NCBI RefSeq assembly: GCF_000195635.1
Contig: NZ_GL882621.1
Coordinates: 1 to 64,000 of the forward strand
Origin: Bacteroides fluxus YIT 12057
GTDB taxonomy: Bacteria > Bacteroidota > Bacteroidia > Bacteroidales > Bacteroidaceae
Direction of reading: 5' to 3'
DNA length: 64,000 nucleotides
Positions within the stretch are counted from its first letter, which is position 1; each line of letters begins with the position of its first letter. The translations under genes were made by a program, and so were the position numbers. The notes under the pieces were generated by a model. The model was given only the letters and a program-made list of their open reading frames with translations. It did not search any database and was not told the DNA's origin. Shown here in pieces: positions 49,175-55,438 of this stretch.

Positions 49175-49205
49175 TTTGGAGTTTATAAAAAAGCCTTTAC
49201 CTTTG
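49175..49205 (+). promoter_or_regulatory. Promoter of the ilv operon
   Basis: TTTG (49175-49178), a 19-base spacer and TACCTTTG (49198-49205) match the Bacteroides promoter consensus at both elements. Transcription would begin about 25 bases before the leader peptide. Confidence 0.75.
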
Positions 49206-49235
49206 CAGCACGATTAAACAAAAGAACAATTAGTT

Positions 49236-49310
49236 ATGAATTTACATACATCTATTAACCTGGCAGTCCTGCATATTATTCGCGTCGTGGTGGTGGCATC
49301 AAGAGCGTGA
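49236..49310 (+). CDS. ilvL: ilv operon leader peptide (attenuator peptide)
   Basis: A 24-codon frame: MNLHTSINLAVL at the start, then HIIRVVVVASRA. Eleven of 24 residues are Leu, Ile or Val, with a run of four Val codons (49284-49295) close to the stop at 49308. It ends inside the RNA segment 49307-49316 that can pair with the terminator arm, so ribosome position would decide which hairpin forms. It is upstream of ilvD, so it fits a branched-chain amino acid attenuator. The peptide itself needs no further function. Confidence 0.88.
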   Translation: MNLHTSINLAVLHIIRVVVVASRA

Positions 49311-49316
49311 GAAAGG
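49307..49316 (+). promoter_or_regulatory. Antiterminator arm of the ilv attenuator
   Basis: gtgagaaagg is perfectly complementary to 49356-49365, the 5' arm of the terminator. It overlaps the leader stop codon, so a ribosome that reaches the stop would cover it and allow termination, and a ribosome stalled on the Val/Ile codons would leave it free to block termination. Confidence 0.8.
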
Positions 49317-49352
49317 TTATGTATGTATTCGTACGTTAGAAGATAATTTGTT

Positions 49353-49385
49353 AAGCCTTTCTCACAGTAGTGGGAAAGGCTTTTT
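49353..49385 (+). terminator. Attenuator terminator before ilvD
   Basis: aagcctttctcac (49353-49365) pairs perfectly with 49370-49382 around a 4-base loop (agta), followed by a run of T (49381-49385). It ends 20 bases before the ilvD start codon. Confidence 0.9.
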
Positions 49386-49405
49386 CATTAAAAGGAGATT
49401 GTAAG

Positions 49406-51208
49406 ATGAAGCATCAGTTACGTAGTTCGTTCAGTACACAAGGTCGCCGTATGGCAGGAGCACGTGCTTTGTGGGTGGCCAATGGCATGAAGAAAGAACA
49501 GATGGGAAAGCCCATTGTCGCTATAGTCAATTCTTTTACTCAGTTTGTCCCCGGACATGTGCACTTGCATGAGATCGGTCAGTTTGTCAAGGAAGAGATT
49601 GAAAAGCAGGGATGTTTTGCTGCGGAATTCAATACGGTTGCCATTGATGACGGTATCGCTATGGGACATGACGGTATGCTTTATTCACTGCCTTCACGGG
49701 ATATCATTGCAGATAGTGTGGAATATATGGTAAACGCCCATAAGGCCGATGCGATGGTTTGCATCAGTAATTGCGACAAGATTACCCCGGGCATGCTGAT
49801 GGCTGCCATGCGGTTGAACATCCCTACCGTTTTTGTTTCCGGTGGTCCTATGGAGGCAGGCAATTGGAATGGGCGGCATCTGGATTTGATCGATGCTATG
49901 ATCAAGTCGGCCGACGAAAGTGTAAGTGACAAGGAGGTTGCCGAGATAGAGCAACATGCTTGTCCTACTTGTGGTTGTTGTTCGGGGATGTTTACTGCCA
50001 ATTCGATGAATTGTCTGAATGAAGCAATCGGTTTGGCATTGCCGGGTAACGGTACCATTGTGGCTACTCATGAAAATCGTAAGCAATTGTTTGAGGATGC
50101 AGCTAAACTGATTGTGGAAAATGCCTATAAATATTACGAAGAAGGAGATGAGAGCGTGCTTCCGCGAAGTATTGCCACTCGCCAGGCTTTTCTGAATGCA
50201 ATGACATTGGATATTGCCATGGGAGGCTCCACGAATACAGTACTTCACTTGTTGGCCATCGCTCATGAAGCCGGAGTGGATTTCAGCATGGACGATATTG
50301 ACAGGTTATCCCGCAAGGCTCCTTGTCTGTGTAAGGTGGCTCCGAATACTCAAAAATATCATGTACAGGATGTGAACCGTGCCGGAGGCATAATTGCCAT
50401 CATGGCCGAACTGGCAAAAGGTGGTTTGGTAGATACGGGTGTTCGTCGGGTAGATGGCATGACGTTGGCCGAAGCGATAGACCAATATGGTATTACCAGT
50501 CCGAACGTATGCAAAAAGGCAATCAAAAAATATTCCAGTGCAGCCGCCGAAAGGTTCAATTTGACATTGGGTTCACAGGACGCTTATTACAAGGAGCTGG
50601 ATACAGACCGTGCTGGAGGTTGTATCCGTGATTTGGAGCATGCTTATAGTAAAGATGGCGGTCTGGCTGTCTTGAAAGGGAACATTGCCCGGGACGGTTG
50701 TGTGGTCAAGACGGCCGGTGTGGACGAAAGTATATGGAAATTTACAGGCCCTGCCAAAGTTTTTGATTCACAGGATGCTGCCTGCGAAGGTATATTGGGA
50801 GGAAAAGTGGTCAGTGGTGATGTTGTCGTTATTACCCATGAGGGACCGAAAGGAGGGCCGGGTATGCAGGAAATGCTTTATCCTACCTCTTATATAAAAT
50901 CCCGTCATTTAGGTAAGGAATGTGCGTTGATTACGGACGGACGTTTCAGCGGTGGCACTTCTGGATTGAGTATCGGACATATTTCTCCCGAAGCCGCTGC
51001 CGGTGGTAATATCGGGAAGATACAGGACGGTGATATTATTGAGATCAATATTCCGGAACGTTCTATAAATGTAAAACTGACGGATGAGGAGCTTGTGGCA
51101 CGTCCCATGACTCCGGTAACCCGTGACCGAACGGTATCAAAAGCACTGAAGGCTTATGCAAGTATGGTAAGTTCTGCAGACAAGGGGGCGGTGAGACTGA
51201 TTGACTGA
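49406..51208 (+). CDS. ilvD: Dihydroxy-acid dehydratase
   Basis: The start is ATG 49406, preceded by a good ribosome site aaggag (49392-49397); an in-frame GTG at 49370 lies inside the terminator stem and is rejected. The 600-residue enzyme dehydrates dihydroxy-isovalerate and dihydroxy-methylvalerate in Val, Leu and Ile synthesis. Iron-sulfur cysteines are seen in [17 protein letters not shown] and [18 protein letters not shown]. Further motifs are [32 protein letters not shown] and [20 protein letters not shown]. It is the first structural gene of the operon and directly behind the attenuator. Confidence 0.97.
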
Positions 51209-51236: not shown

Positions 51237-53000
51237 ATGAATAAAGATATGGCTGATAACAATAAAAAGAGTAACTCTTCCTCCCTTTCTTTGGGAGAGG
51301 GCCGGGGTGAGGCTTTGATAACAGGTGCAGAAGCGTTGATGCGTTCTTTGGAACATCAAGGGGTAAGGACTATCTTTGGTTATCCGGGGGGTAGCATCAT
51401 GCCGGTATTTGATGCCTTATATGACCACCGGATGAATTTGAATCATATTCTGGTTCGCCATGAGCAGGGAGCAACTCATGCCGCACAAGGCTTTGCGCGT
51501 GTATCGGGTGAAGTCGGGGTGTGTCTGGTAACCAGTGGTCCGGGGGCTACCAATACTATAACAGGCATTGCCGATGCCATGATAGACAGTACGCCGATGG
51601 TAGTCATTGCCGGTCAGGTAGGGACTAATTTCTTGGGTACGGACGCTTTCCAGGAAGTGGATTTGGTAGGCATCACACAGCCAATCACCAAATGGAGTTA
51701 TCAGATCCGCCGTGCCGAGGATGTAGCCTGGGCTGTGGCCCGCGCCTTTTATATCGCTAAAAGCGGACGGCCCGGACCGGTGGTATTGGACTTTGCCAAG
51801 AATGCCCAAGTAGATAAGACGGGATATGTTCCTACCAAAGTTGATTATATCCGCAGCTATCTTCCTGTTCCGGAAATGGATCCGGAAGCCATTCAGAGGG
51901 CGGCGGATATGATAAATGGCGCAGAACGTCCGTTAGTGTTGGTCGGACAGGGAGTAGAGTTGGGAAATGCGCAGCGGGAACTCCGTGCGTTTATAGAGAA
52001 AGCGGGGATGCCTGCCGGTTGTACATTATTGGGACTATCGGCCTTGCCTACAGACCATCCGTTGAATAAAGGCATGTTGGGGATGCATGGGAATCTCGGC
52101 CCGAACATAAACACGAATAAATGTGATGTACTTATTGCCGTAGGCATGCGTTTTGATGACCGCGTGACGGGTAAGCTTGCGACTTATGCTACACAGGCGA
52201 AAGTTATTCATTTCGATATCGACCCTGCCGAGATAGATAAGAATGTAAAGGCTGACATTGCCGTTTTAGGAGATTGCAAAGAGACTTTGGCTGCCGTTAC
52301 GGAGTTATTGAAACCTGCCGCCCATGAAGAATGGCTGGAGAGCTTTCTCCCATACGAGCAGATGGAAGAAGAAAAAGTGATTCGTCCCGAATTGCATCCT
52401 GCCGGCAGCGCATTAAGCATGGGGGAAGTGGTACGGGCTGTCAGCGAAGCGACCGGCCACGAAGCTATTCTTGTAACCGATGTCGGGCAAAATCAGATGA
52501 TGTCCGCCCGTTATTTTAAATATAGCAAAGAACGCAGCATTGTTACTTCCGGTGGTTTGGGTACAATGGGCTTTGGCCTGCCGGCGGCTATTGGTGCTAC
52601 TTTCGGACGTCCGGATCGTACGGTCTGTGTATTTATGGGAGATGGCGGCTTGCAGATGAATTTGCAGGAGCTGGGCACTATCATGGAACAGAAAGCTCCG
52701 GTAAAAATGATTCTCTTGAACAATAACTTCCTGGGCAATGTTCGTCAATGGCAGGCTATGTTTTTCAACCGCCGGTATTCGTTCACGCCCATGATGAATC
52801 CTGATTATATGAAGATAGCGTCTGCGTATGACATTCCGGCACGCCGGGTACTTGCCCGCCAGGATTTGAAGAAAGCGATAGATGAAATGGTTGCTGCCGA
52901 CGGTCCGTTCTTGTTGGAAGCATGCGTGGTTGAGGAAGGTAATGTATTGCCGATGACACCTCCGGGCGGTTCTGTAAATCAGATGCTGTTGGAATGCTGA
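51237..53000 (+). CDS. ilvB: Acetolactate synthase, large (catalytic) subunit
   Basis: A 587-residue thiamine-diphosphate enzyme that makes acetolactate or acetohydroxybutyrate. Motifs: FGYPGGSIMPVFDALYD with the catalytic Glu in LVRHEQGATHAAQGFARVSG; VTSGPGATNTITGIADAM; the FAD region PTDHPLNKGMLGMHGN; and the thiamine motif MGDGGLQMNLQELGTIMEQK with LNNNFLGNVRQWQ. The N-terminal 30 residues are a polar extension containing SLSLGEGRGEA, which looks like a repeat inserted in frame. Start may be residue 1 or Met5. It lies 28 bases after ilvD. Confidence 0.97.
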   Translation: MNKDMADNNKKSNSSSLSLGEGRGEALITGAEALMRSLEHQGVRTIFGYPGGSIMPVFDALYDHRMNLNHILVRHEQGATHAAQGFARVSGEVGVCLVTSGPGATNTITGIADAMIDSTPMVVIAGQVGTNFLGTDAFQEVDLVGITQPITKWSYQIRRAEDVAWAVARAFYIAKSGRPGPVVLDFAKNAQVDKTGYVPTKVDYIRSYLPVPEMDPEAIQRAADMINGAERPLVLVGQGVELGNAQRELRAFIEKAGMPAGCTLLGLSALPTDHPLNKGMLGMHGNLGPNINTNKCDVLIAVGMRFDDRVTGKLATYATQAKVIHFDIDPAEIDKNVKADIAVLGDCKETLAAVTELLKPAAHEEWLESFLPYEQMEEEKVIRPELHPAGSALSMGEVVRAVSEATGHEAILVTDVGQNQMMSARYFKYSKERSIVTSGGLGTMGFGLPAAIGATFGRPDRTVCVFMGDGGLQMNLQELGTIMEQKAPVKMILLNNNFLGNVRQWQAMFFNRRYSFTPMMNPDYMKIASAYDIPARRVLARQDLKKAIDEMVAADGPFLLEACVVEEGNVLPMTPPGGSVNQMLLEC

Positions 53001-53033: not shown

Positions 53034-53594
53034 ATGAGTGACAAGACATTATATACCATTATCGTTCATTCGGAAAACTTTGCCGGCTTGTTGAATCAAG
53101 TGACGGCTGTATTTACCCGTCGGCAAATAAATATCGAGAGTCTGAATGTATCGGCCTCTTCCATCAAGGGAGTACATAAATATACCATTACTGCCTGGAC
53201 GGATAAAGCTACCATCGAAAAGGTTACCAAACAGATAACCAAGAAGATTGATGTATTGCAGGCTCATTATTTTACGGATGACGAGATATACCAGCACGAA
53301 ATTGCCCTGTATAAAATAACGACTCCCGTTTTGGAAGAAAAACCGGAAGTATCCAAAATCATCCGTAAATACAATGCGCGTATCGTGGAGGTAAACGCTG
53401 TGTTTTCGATTGTGGAGAAAAACGGCATGAGTGAGGAAATCACCAATCTTTATGAGGAATTGCGTGTGTTGGACTGTGTGCTTCAGTTTGTCCGTTCAGG
53501 GCGCGTAGCCATAACTACCAGCTGTTTTGAACGTGTCAACGAGTATCTGGCTGACCGCGAAGCGAAATATCGTCAAAGTAAACAAGAAGAATAA
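53034..53594 (+). CDS. ilvN: Acetolactate synthase, small (regulatory) subunit
   Basis: A 186-residue protein with an N-terminal ACT domain (YTIIVHSENFAGLLNQVTAVF, RRQINIESLNVS) and the ALS-type C-terminal domain (ARIVEVNAVFSIVEKNGMSE). It binds the large subunit and gives valine feedback inhibition in known enzymes. The gene is 33 bases after ilvB and overlaps the next start by one base (TAATG). Confidence 0.96.
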   Translation: MSDKTLYTIIVHSENFAGLLNQVTAVFTRRQINIESLNVSASSIKGVHKYTITAWTDKATIEKVTKQITKKIDVLQAHYFTDDEIYQHEIALYKITTPVLEEKPEVSKIIRKYNARIVEVNAVFSIVEKNGMSEEITNLYEELRVLDCVLQFVRSGRVAITTSCFERVNEYLADREAKYRQSKQEE

Positions 53595-54343
53595 TGAGTG
53601 AGAACAATAAAATAGGTACTTATAAGTTTGTGGCCGAACCGTTCCATGTTGATTTTACCGGACGCCTCACAATGGGGGTTCTTGGGAACCATTTGTTGAA
53701 CTGTGCCGGATTCCATGCCAGTGACCGTGGTTTTGGTATAGCGACGCTGAACGAAGACAATTACACATGGGTGTTGTCTCGTCTGGCTATCGAACTGGAT
53801 GAGATGCCTTACCAGTATGAAGATTTTTCTGTTCAGACCTGGGTAGAGAATGTCTATCGTCTTTTCACAGACCGTAATTTTGCCGTTATCAATAAAGAGG
53901 GAAAGAAAATAGGTTATGCGCGTTCCGTATGGGCGATGATTAGCATGAATACCCGTAAACCGGCTGATTTGCTGGCGCTTCATGGTGGCAGTATAGTGGA
54001 TTATGTCTGTGATGAACCTTGCCCGATTGAAAAGCCTTCACGCATCAAGGTATCTTCAAGGGAGCCGGCAGCTATATTGGAGGCCAAGTATAGTGACATT
54101 GACATTAACGGACATGTGAACAGCATTCGCTATATTGAGCATATACTCGACCTGTTCCCCATTGAAATGTATAAGGAGAGGCGAATCCGCCGTTTTGAAA
54201 TGGCGTATGTGGCCGAAAGCTACTATGGTGACGAACTGGCCTTCTATATGGATGATATCGGTGACGGGGTCTATGATGTAGAGGTGAAGAAGAACGCTGC
54301 CGAAGTGGTTTGCCGTTCTAAGGTGATATTTACTGAAAAATAA
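53594..54343 (+). CDS. Acyl-ACP thioesterase
   Basis: A 249-residue protein of the bacterial acyl-ACP thioesterase (FatA/FatB-like) family with two hot-dog halves: MGVLGNHLLNCAGFHASDRG and WVLSRLAIELDEMPYQYEDF in the first, and AKYSDIDINGHVNSIRYIEH, carrying the catalytic Asp/Asn/His set, in the second. It releases free fatty acids from acyl carrier protein. Its start overlaps the ilvN stop, so it is translated with the ilv genes and would be controlled by the same attenuator. Substrate chain type is unknown. A role with branched-chain acyl groups made from the pathway keto acids is a reasonable inference. Confidence 0.9.
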   Translation: MSENNKIGTYKFVAEPFHVDFTGRLTMGVLGNHLLNCAGFHASDRGFGIATLNEDNYTWVLSRLAIELDEMPYQYEDFSVQTWVENVYRLFTDRNFAVINKEGKKIGYARSVWAMISMNTRKPADLLALHGGSIVDYVCDEPCPIEKPSRIKVSSREPAAILEAKYSDIDINGHVNSIRYIEHILDLFPIEMYKERRIRRFEMAYVAESYYGDELAFYMDDIGDGVYDVEVKKNAAEVVCRSKVIFTEK

Positions 54344-54394: not shown

Positions 54395-55438
54395 ATGGCA
54401 CAATTGAATTTTGGCGGTGTTATTGAAAATGTAATGACCCGCGAAGAATTTCCTTTGGAAAAAGCACGTGAGATTTTGAAAGATGAGACAATTGCGGTAA
54501 TCGGTTATGGAGTACAAGGACCGGGACAGGCTTGTAATTTGCGTGACAATGGTTTCAATGTAATTGTAGGACAGCGTCCGGGCAAGACGTACGAGAAGGC
54601 CATTGCTGACGGATGGGTTCCGGGTGAAACTTTGTTCGGCATTGAGGAAGCATGCCAAAAGGGAACGGTTATTATGTGCCTGCTCTCTGATGCGGCAGTC
54701 ATGTCTGTATGGCCCGTAATGAAACCTTATCTGACAGCCGGAAAGGCACTTTATTTCTCTCATGGTTTTGCCATTACATGGAGCGACCGTACCGGTGTGG
54801 TTCCGCCGAAAGATATTGATGTAATCATGGTTGCGCCTAAAGGTTCGGGTACGTCACTTCGTACGATGTTCCTTGAGGGCCGTGGTTTGAACTCATCGTA
54901 CGCTATCTATCAGGATGCTACGGGCAAGGCATTGGACAGGACACTTGCTTTGGGTATCGGTATCGGTTCCGGTTATCTGTTCGAGACTACTTTCCAGCGT
55001 GAGGCTACTTCGGATTTGACCGGAGAACGCGGTTCATTGATGGGAGCCATCCAGGGATTGCTGTTGGCTCAGTATGAAGTATTGCGTGAAAACGGGCATA
55101 CTCCTTCCGAAGCATTCAATGAAACGGTTGAAGAGCTGACTCAGTCGTTGATGCCGTTGTTTGCAAAGAACGGTATGGACTGGATGTATGCCAATTGTTC
55201 GACTACTGCTCAGCGTGGTGCCCTGGATTGGATGACTCCGTTCCATGATGCCATCAAGCCGGTAGTAGAAAAATTGTATGCCAGCGTAAAATCCGGTAAT
55301 GAAGCCCAAATCTCCATTGACAGCAATTCCAAGCCGGATTATCGTGAAAAACTGAATGCGGAATTGAAAGCACTGCGTGAAAGCGAGATGTGGCAGACTG
55401 CCGTTACCGTTCGTAAACTTCGTCCGGAAAATAACTGA
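54395..55438 (+). CDS. ilvC: Ketol-acid reductoisomerase
   Basis: A 347-residue class I enzyme that converts acetolactate to dihydroxy-isovalerate using NAD(P)H and magnesium. The Rossmann motif is AVIGYGVQGPGQACNLRDNG; a following Arg in VGQRPGKTYE faces the cofactor phosphate. Metal and substrate motifs are SDLTGERGSLMGAIQGLLLA and AFNETVEELTQSLMPLF. It is the last gene of the ilv operon, 51 bases after the thioesterase and before a terminator. Confidence 0.97.
   Translation: MAQLNFGGVIENVMTREEFPLEKAREILKDETIAVIGYGVQGPGQACNLRDNGFNVIVGQRPGKTYEKAIADGWVPGETLFGIEEACQKGTVIMCLLSDAAVMSVWPVMKPYLTAGKALYFSHGFAITWSDRTGVVPPKDIDVIMVAPKGSGTSLRTMFLEGRGLNSSYAIYQDATGKALDRTLALGIGIGSGYLFETTFQREATSDLTGERGSLMGAIQGLLLAQYEVLRENGHTPSEAFNETVEELTQSLMPLFAKNGMDWMYANCSTTAQRGALDWMTPFHDAIKPVVEKLYASVKSGNEAQISIDSNSKPDYREKLNAELKALRESEMWQTAVTVRKLRPENN

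Follow-up and report, generated by a model that had tools for sequence, protein, structure and literature searches.

A predicted leader-peptide attenuator with a third helix precedes the ilv operon of Bacteroides fluxus

INTRODUCTION

The region upstream of ilvD in Bacteroides fluxus YIT 12057 contains a short reading frame rich in Ile, Val and Leu codons followed by a hairpin, and this arrangement raises the question of whether frame and hairpin together form an attenuator and, if so, which RNA segments compete in it. The region belongs to a 64,000-nucleotide stretch of DNA that was analysed as a whole and is called the window here. The enterobacterial ilvGMEDA and ilvBN attenuators have an Ile/Val/Leu-rich leader, competing segments and an intrinsic terminator before the operon, as the ilv leader described here does; their gene order differs from that of the present operon.

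The leader-peptide switch is little described in Bacteroidota. A 2010 survey knew of such systems only in Proteobacteria and Actinobacteria, besides its own Firmicutes find and an atypical ermC leader (PMC2965389). The Bacteroid-trp leader RNA was listed in the same year (Weinberg et al. 2010, PMC2864571), and a study of Flavobacterium psychrophilum reports 'strong clues' that amino acid operons are preceded by control of this kind (PMC9723704). For Bacteroidota, the literature searched gave only this Trp motif and general hints, which agrees with the remark of the initial annotation that the mechanism is little tested in this genus. Among the papers listed in the literature searches, none, judged from its listing, describes leader attenuation of ilv, leu or his genes in Bacteroides; the sORF table of PMC7366714 could contain such leaders.

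RESULTS

Promoter, leader frame and operon

The genes downstream of the leader and their family matches are the following.

49406–51208, + strand: ilvD, dihydroxy-acid dehydratase, putatively the first regulated gene (TIGR00110, 785.5 bits)
51237–53000, + strand: ilvB, acetolactate synthase large subunit (TIGR00118, 677.8 bits)
53034–53594, + strand: ilvN/ilvH, acetolactate synthase small subunit (TIGR00119, 90.7 bits)
53594–54343, + strand: acyl-ACP thioesterase, within the operon between ilvN and ilvC (PF01643 and PF20791)
54395–55438, + strand: ilvC, ketol-acid reductoisomerase (TIGR00465, 313.9 bits)

The closest named IlvD was that of Bacteroides propionicigenes (94%). The thioesterase had no NCBIfam match at E 1e-20; its presence in the operon perhaps couples branched-chain precursors to fatty acids. 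Ahead of ilvD, the sequence contains these elements.

49175–49178, + strand: TTTG, −33 promoter element (from the sequence)
49198–49205, + strand: TACCTTTG (TAnnTTTG), −7 promoter element (from consensus counts across genus leaders)
49236–49310, + strand: leader peptide ORF MNLHTSINLAVLHIIRVVVVASRA, 24 codons, TGA stop at 49308–49310 (base-by-base reading)
49284–49295, + strand: run of four Val codons, GTC GTG GTG GTG, the likely stall site

The two promoter elements are separated by 19 bases and correspond to the consensus from work on Bacteroides promoters (TTTG / TAnnTTTG). Of 103 same-genus leaders, 100 are preceded by TAnnTTTG, compared with 198 of 5150 mononucleotide shuffles. A second genomic match of the ilv promoter region (L082) looks like another promoter. 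The leader peptide contains no Trp residues; its putative ORF is rich in codons for the products of the pathway, as that of an attenuator should be, and a predicted intrinsic terminator lies between it and ilvD. Folding of the whole ilvD leader stretch gave a z value of −4.24, and none of 200 shuffles folded equally well. The promoter, the 24-codon leader with its four Val codons, the antiterminator arm at 49307–49316 and the terminator at 49353–49385 had all been marked in the initial annotation, and every coordinate held when read base by base.

Conservation of the leader within and beyond the genus

From 119 genomes of the genus, 113 of them with ilvD, we obtained 110 upstream regions (G037, G118 and G038 were left out). 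A leader was scored when an ATG ORF of 12–45 codons, with at least six Ile, Val or Leu in eight residues, started no more than 260 bases from ilvD. This filter was passed by 102 of the 110 regions, compared with 99 of 2200 dinucleotide shuffles. Inspection revealed further leaders in L190 and the contig-cut L124 and a degenerate one plus terminator in L177; in five of the 110 loci (L167, L174, L176, L179 and L180) both a leader and a strong terminator before ilvD are lacking. In several of these five a TTTG-type promoter seems to lie near the gene, perhaps reflecting natural loss of the attenuator.

The filter used for alignment took the best-scoring ORF and for this reason missed L111, a carrier on inspection. 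It kept 103 of the 110 regions, with 98 unique leaders; dereplication at 93% left 75, of which 74 were aligned (without L192). Of the 103 leaders, 98 contain VVV and 56 contain VVVV, and in 99 the leader stop and the beginning of the antiterminator arm overlap. Val is encoded in these 103 leaders by 255 GTC, 226 GTG, 18 GTT and 13 GTA, which differs from the usage in nine genes of the window (GTT 0.24, GTC 0.16, GTA 0.30, GTG 0.30). The mid-leader sequence AVLHIIR (49263–49283) is conserved although it lies outside the antiterminator arm and helix P1 (see below); HIIR occurs in 67 and VLHIIR in 56 of the 103 leaders.

The same leader filter was applied to 68 named loci not assigned to outside phyla, among them L031, labelled Verrucomicrobiales, and five with fewer than 450 bases upstream; 37 passed, compared with 43 of 1360 shuffles. 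The named and genus sets are not independent because they partly overlap (e.g. L003 and G104). None of the 12 loci outside Bacteroidota (Desulfobacterota, Spirochaetes, Fibrobacter and Akkermansiaceae; two of them with fewer than 180 bases upstream) passed, compared with 5 of 240 shuffles. None of nine Prevotella-type loci passed either, in a set picked by label and including L030 with only 195 bases upstream; L009 and L018, labelled Prevotellaceae and outside the nine, do have a leader. Since it is absent from five genus loci and no Prevotella-type locus of the nine passes the filter, the predicted ilv attenuator is dispensable. Leaders outside Bacteroides (Tannerella, Alistipes, Paludibacter, Saccharicrinis, Prolixibacteraceae and Marinifilum) have little in common but their richness in Ile, Val and Leu, and a class-wide search with the 24-residue leader, a query too short to map its distribution, gave matches with E up to 1 in 8 of 395 genomes.

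Two variants of the arrangement were observed. Two tandem Ile/Val-rich leaders, each followed by a terminator, lie ahead of ilvD in L067, L074 and L077 (Marinifilum, Labilibaculum and a Marinifilaceae MAG). In three of four Phocaeicola-labelled loci (L006, L007 and L013, L005 being the exception) and in L008, which carries the label Bacteroides sp., the leader ends in ...GE or continues beyond it; the stop is shifted in these leaders because the frame runs through the GAG of the antiterminator arm.

Three predicted helices share strands in the leader RNA

The predicted pairing segments of the leader are as follows.

49235–49261, + strand: segment 1, 5′ strand of helix P1, leader codons 1–9 including the start codon (folding, covariation)
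49307–49318, + strand: segment 2, antiterminator arm over the leader stop (folding, alignment, swap test)
49314–49333, + strand: 3′ strand of P1, overlapping the antiterminator arm (covariation)
49319–49336, + strand: small hairpin in the antiterminator loop, an alternative to P1 with weaker support (outer four pairs 68.2% paired, inner three pairs 91.4%)
49353–49365, + strand: segment 3, 5′ arm of the terminator and partner of segment 2
49370–49382, + strand: segment 4, 3′ arm of the terminator
49381–49385, + strand: terminator T run, five T (from the sequence)

Segments 3 and 4 form a terminator hairpin of 13 pairs. The core of the antiterminator arm, 49307–49316 (GTGAGAAAGG), is a perfect complement of 49356–49365 (CCTTTCTCAC), and the full antiterminator comprises 12 pairs with one G-U (49307–49318 with 49354–49365). 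Strand 49354–49365 is common to antiterminator and terminator, which are thus mutually exclusive. Over the 74 aligned leaders, 97.3% of the terminator cells were paired, with a score of 0.209 compared with at most 0.116 for slid versions, and 95.5% of the antiterminator cells were paired. Lack of conservation of the leader frame or of the pairing would have spoken against attenuation; the alignment of ilvD upstream regions showed both to be conserved in the genus. Of the compensatory changes that the initial annotation had proposed to look for in both hairpins, hardly any were found in the antiterminator within the genus (1 of 12 pairs, 2 cells). As double changes are scarce, the within-genus support for the antiterminator consists of conservation and wobble.

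The ten core positions of segment 3 are nearly invariant except for 49365, which is C in 59 of 74 leaders. In their ten core positions, segments 2 and 4 have 23 and 111 changed cells, and the pairing with segment 3 is kept in 19 and 90 of these, respectively; in both segments the pair-keeping changes are mostly A to G opposite U. A fixed segment 3 with drifting segments 2 and 4 is the mark of one strand with two predicted partners. An inner hairpin at 49280–49310 was not accepted, its score being 0.143 compared with 0.119 for slid controls.

RNAalifold returned only the terminator when run on the leader alignment, so P1 was tested by name. P1 is a protector (1:2) helix that excludes the antiterminator, as 49314–49318 belong to both. 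In the 74 leaders 84.2% of its cells were paired, and its covariation score was 0.171 compared with 0.017–0.053 for controls in which the partner strand was slid by one to three columns, over which a structure drawn from one aligned sequence has some built-in advantage. Double-sided changes were found in 14 of the 19 P1 pairs, compared with 8–11 pairs in the slid versions, and one slid version (at −2) had as many cells with a double change as P1, 32 in each. Since the slid versions approach P1 in double-change counts, the case for P1 is based on its score and its share of paired cells.

Distant loci were examined too, because the shuffle control for the helices treated the leaders as unrelated and because a structure derived from a member has a head start. 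In 36 of the 68 named loci we compared the pairing of each locus with its own partner and with partners exchanged between loci; the other 32 were dropped by the filters (no leader or terminator), and in some kept rows the stop is shifted or misplaced (e.g. L007 and L013). With related loci treated as independent, the antiterminator had a mean of −14.0 kcal/mol with its own partner and −11.3 kcal/mol with swapped ones (p 1e-5), and P1 had −11.8 and −8.5 kcal/mol (p 0.002). The own partner ranked best of 36 in only 3 loci for the antiterminator and 5 for P1.

It could be argued that P1 has no role and that the ribosome over the stop alone decides between antiterminator and terminator. The geometry would suffice for this, since a ribosome at the stop covers the arm and one at the Val run would not, given the usual size of a ribosome footprint. 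We consider this reading unlikely, as P1 covaries in the genus, pairs better with own than with swapped partners in distant loci and agrees with the plan of the curated Bacteroid-trp structure. Folding and P1 covariation likewise lead us to reject the earlier reading of the antiterminator as a single 10-base pairing, simpler than the enterobacterial arrangement, and the antiterminator itself has 12 pairs rather than 10. With P1 adding a helix that overlaps the antiterminator arm, the leader has the classic four segments, and it is very probably a ribosome-mediated transcription attenuator. Attenuation by a Val/Ile/Leu leader, as first proposed from the sequence of this locus, is strongly supported by conservation, pairing and the swap test. 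Sequence and comparison together establish the promoter, the leader frame and the three predicted helices with their conservation.

Proposed effect of ribosome position on the choice of helix

From this arrangement we infer that readthrough of the ilv terminator would depend on amino acids. Transcription would begin shortly after 49205, and a ribosome would start on the leader. When charged Val-tRNA is scarce (perhaps also Ile or Leu), the ribosome would stall at 49284–49295. A ribosome covers roughly 12–15 bases ahead of its P site and the Val codons end at 49295, so a stall on the Val run would leave the arm 49307–49318 free to pair with 49354–49365 once that strand is made; the terminator would then be blocked, and ilvD to ilvC would be transcribed. 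When amino acids are ample, the ribosome would reach the stop at 49308–49310 and its footprint would lie over the arm, so that segments 3 and 4 would pair and transcription would end at 49381–49385. If the leader is untranslated or the ribosome has gone, P1 would form before segment 3 exists and occupy half of the arm, and the terminator would form. P1 would also hide the leader start codon and may prevent the loading of a second ribosome.

Folding of partial transcripts gave P1 first, with −29.2 kcal/mol at 49335. At 49366 the two states were near balance (antiterminator −32.4 kcal/mol, P1 −31.1 kcal/mol), and at the end P1 plus terminator had −50.9 kcal/mol compared with −38.6 kcal/mol with the antiterminator. 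These folds, taken with the ribosome footprint, suggest that an untranslated leader would terminate, a stalled one would read through and a finished one would terminate. One feature counts against the model: segment 1 lies upstream of a Val-stalled ribosome and not under it, so P1 could re-form around that ribosome.

Relation to known attenuators

Bacteroid-trp (RF01692) belongs to the same phylum as the ilv leader, and both have a leader ORF, a terminator before the first gene and a 5′ part of the leader that pairs with a segment after the stop. They differ in that Bacteroid-trp has Trp codons and the ilv leader Val, Ile and Leu codons, and the latter had no RF01692 match at E up to 1. P1 of the ilv leader takes in the leader start codon, which is not known of the enterobacterial ilv attenuators.

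In Corynebacterium glutamicum the ilvBNC attenuator has three hairpins, namely terminator, antiterminator and anti-antiterminator (PMC11857589), which are also the roles predicted for the three helices of the present leader. The C. glutamicum leader quoted there, MTIIRLVVVTARRLP, is similar to the core IIRLVVV that some leaders of the genus contain (e.g. L150, L158 and L166). C. glutamicum belongs to another phylum, and its leader of 15 residues lies one base after the transcription start; convergence seems the likelier explanation of the resemblance.

Judged from sequence and comparison, the ilv leader is a real leader-peptide attenuator, ordinary in principle and predicted to work in a textbook-like manner. 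It follows the same plan as Bacteroid-trp and is not of a new kind, and it is uncatalogued in the catalogues searched.

Leaders ahead of leu, his and trp in the same genome

Four amino acid operons of this genome (ilv, leu, his and trp) have leaders with fitting codons. A leader followed by a terminator-like hairpin and a T run precedes leuA (MIQNFTYILLCGISILLARFSGSECCA; L193/L204, C4:1-760), hisG (MKNIVAHHYHHHPDE; L197/L205, C13:122500-123400) and trpB (MKTRFVNTYWWWHPLQLRQS; L203, minus strand, C91:21300-22800). The 5′ arm of the leuA terminator has GCCTTTCTCAC in common with that of ilv. The leu and his operons were surveyed in 28 same-genus loci each, from 31 genomes each, as raw counts. 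A Leu-type leader, judged by eye on the best-scoring ORF, was found in 25 of 28 loci and by eye in L235 too; 24 of 28 had a His leader, defined by three or more His within eight residues, and one of the four others, L255, has only 119 bases upstream.

The trpB leader is the Rfam Bacteroid-trp RNA (92.6 bits, cut-off 49), and the his leader scored 25.5 bits on Rfam His_leader, below the cut-off of 49. Neither the ilv leader (L081) nor the leu leader matched any Rfam family at E up to 1, and the whole window gave no match to 4227 Rfam families at gathering score, T-box and riboswitches included. The ilv, leu and his leaders thus stand without an Rfam match above the curated score, and with the trp leader they make a testable set for amino acid sensing in these bacteria.

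These data bear on the reading that the hairpin upstream of ilvD is a plain terminator or a metabolite-sensing, riboswitch-like element and the small ORF incidental. Such an element would be in keeping with the strong terminator before the operon, and candidate ilvD RNA motifs exist in other phyla (the Veillonella ilvD motif, PMC8632094). However, 102 of 110 loci retain the Ile/Val/Leu-rich leader, each of the leucine, histidine and tryptophan operons has a leader rich in its own codon, and neither the window at gathering score nor the ilv leader at E up to 1 matched Rfam, which makes this reading very improbable. That the leader encodes a functional small protein and lies upstream of ilvD by chance is scarcely credible: the peptide core is conserved in the genus, including AVLHIIR, which neither P1 nor the antiterminator arm explains, but P1 and the antiterminator arm fall on codons 1–9 and on the final codons plus stop, codons 1–9 covary with their pairing partners, and other families keep little but the Ile/Val/Leu richness.

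When folded alone, all four leaders formed a helix ahead of the terminator in which leader codons pair with a segment after the stop; the his helix was shorter than the long ones of ilv, leu and trp. In tests of a P1-type duplex, 4 of 500 shuffles were as good for trp and 75 of 500 for his, which is not significant; for leu the number was 334 of 500, with a tested interval that began after the stop and cut the helix off. We tentatively suggest, as a possibility that we hold well short of an even chance, that the Bacteroides ilv, leu, his and trp attenuators share one plan, in which a protector helix would be anchored at or near the leader start, in ilv at the start codon itself, P1 would act as an initiation gate and each nascent transcript as a one-shot sensor. 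As its strand lies upstream of the stalled ribosome, P1 may be mainly such a gate, closing after the first ribosome and blocking re-initiation.

A leader candidate was also seen ahead of thrA (MNKYYQHTVTSMCTMTLRG; L202, C22:82400-84300); the hairpin that follows it lacks a T run.
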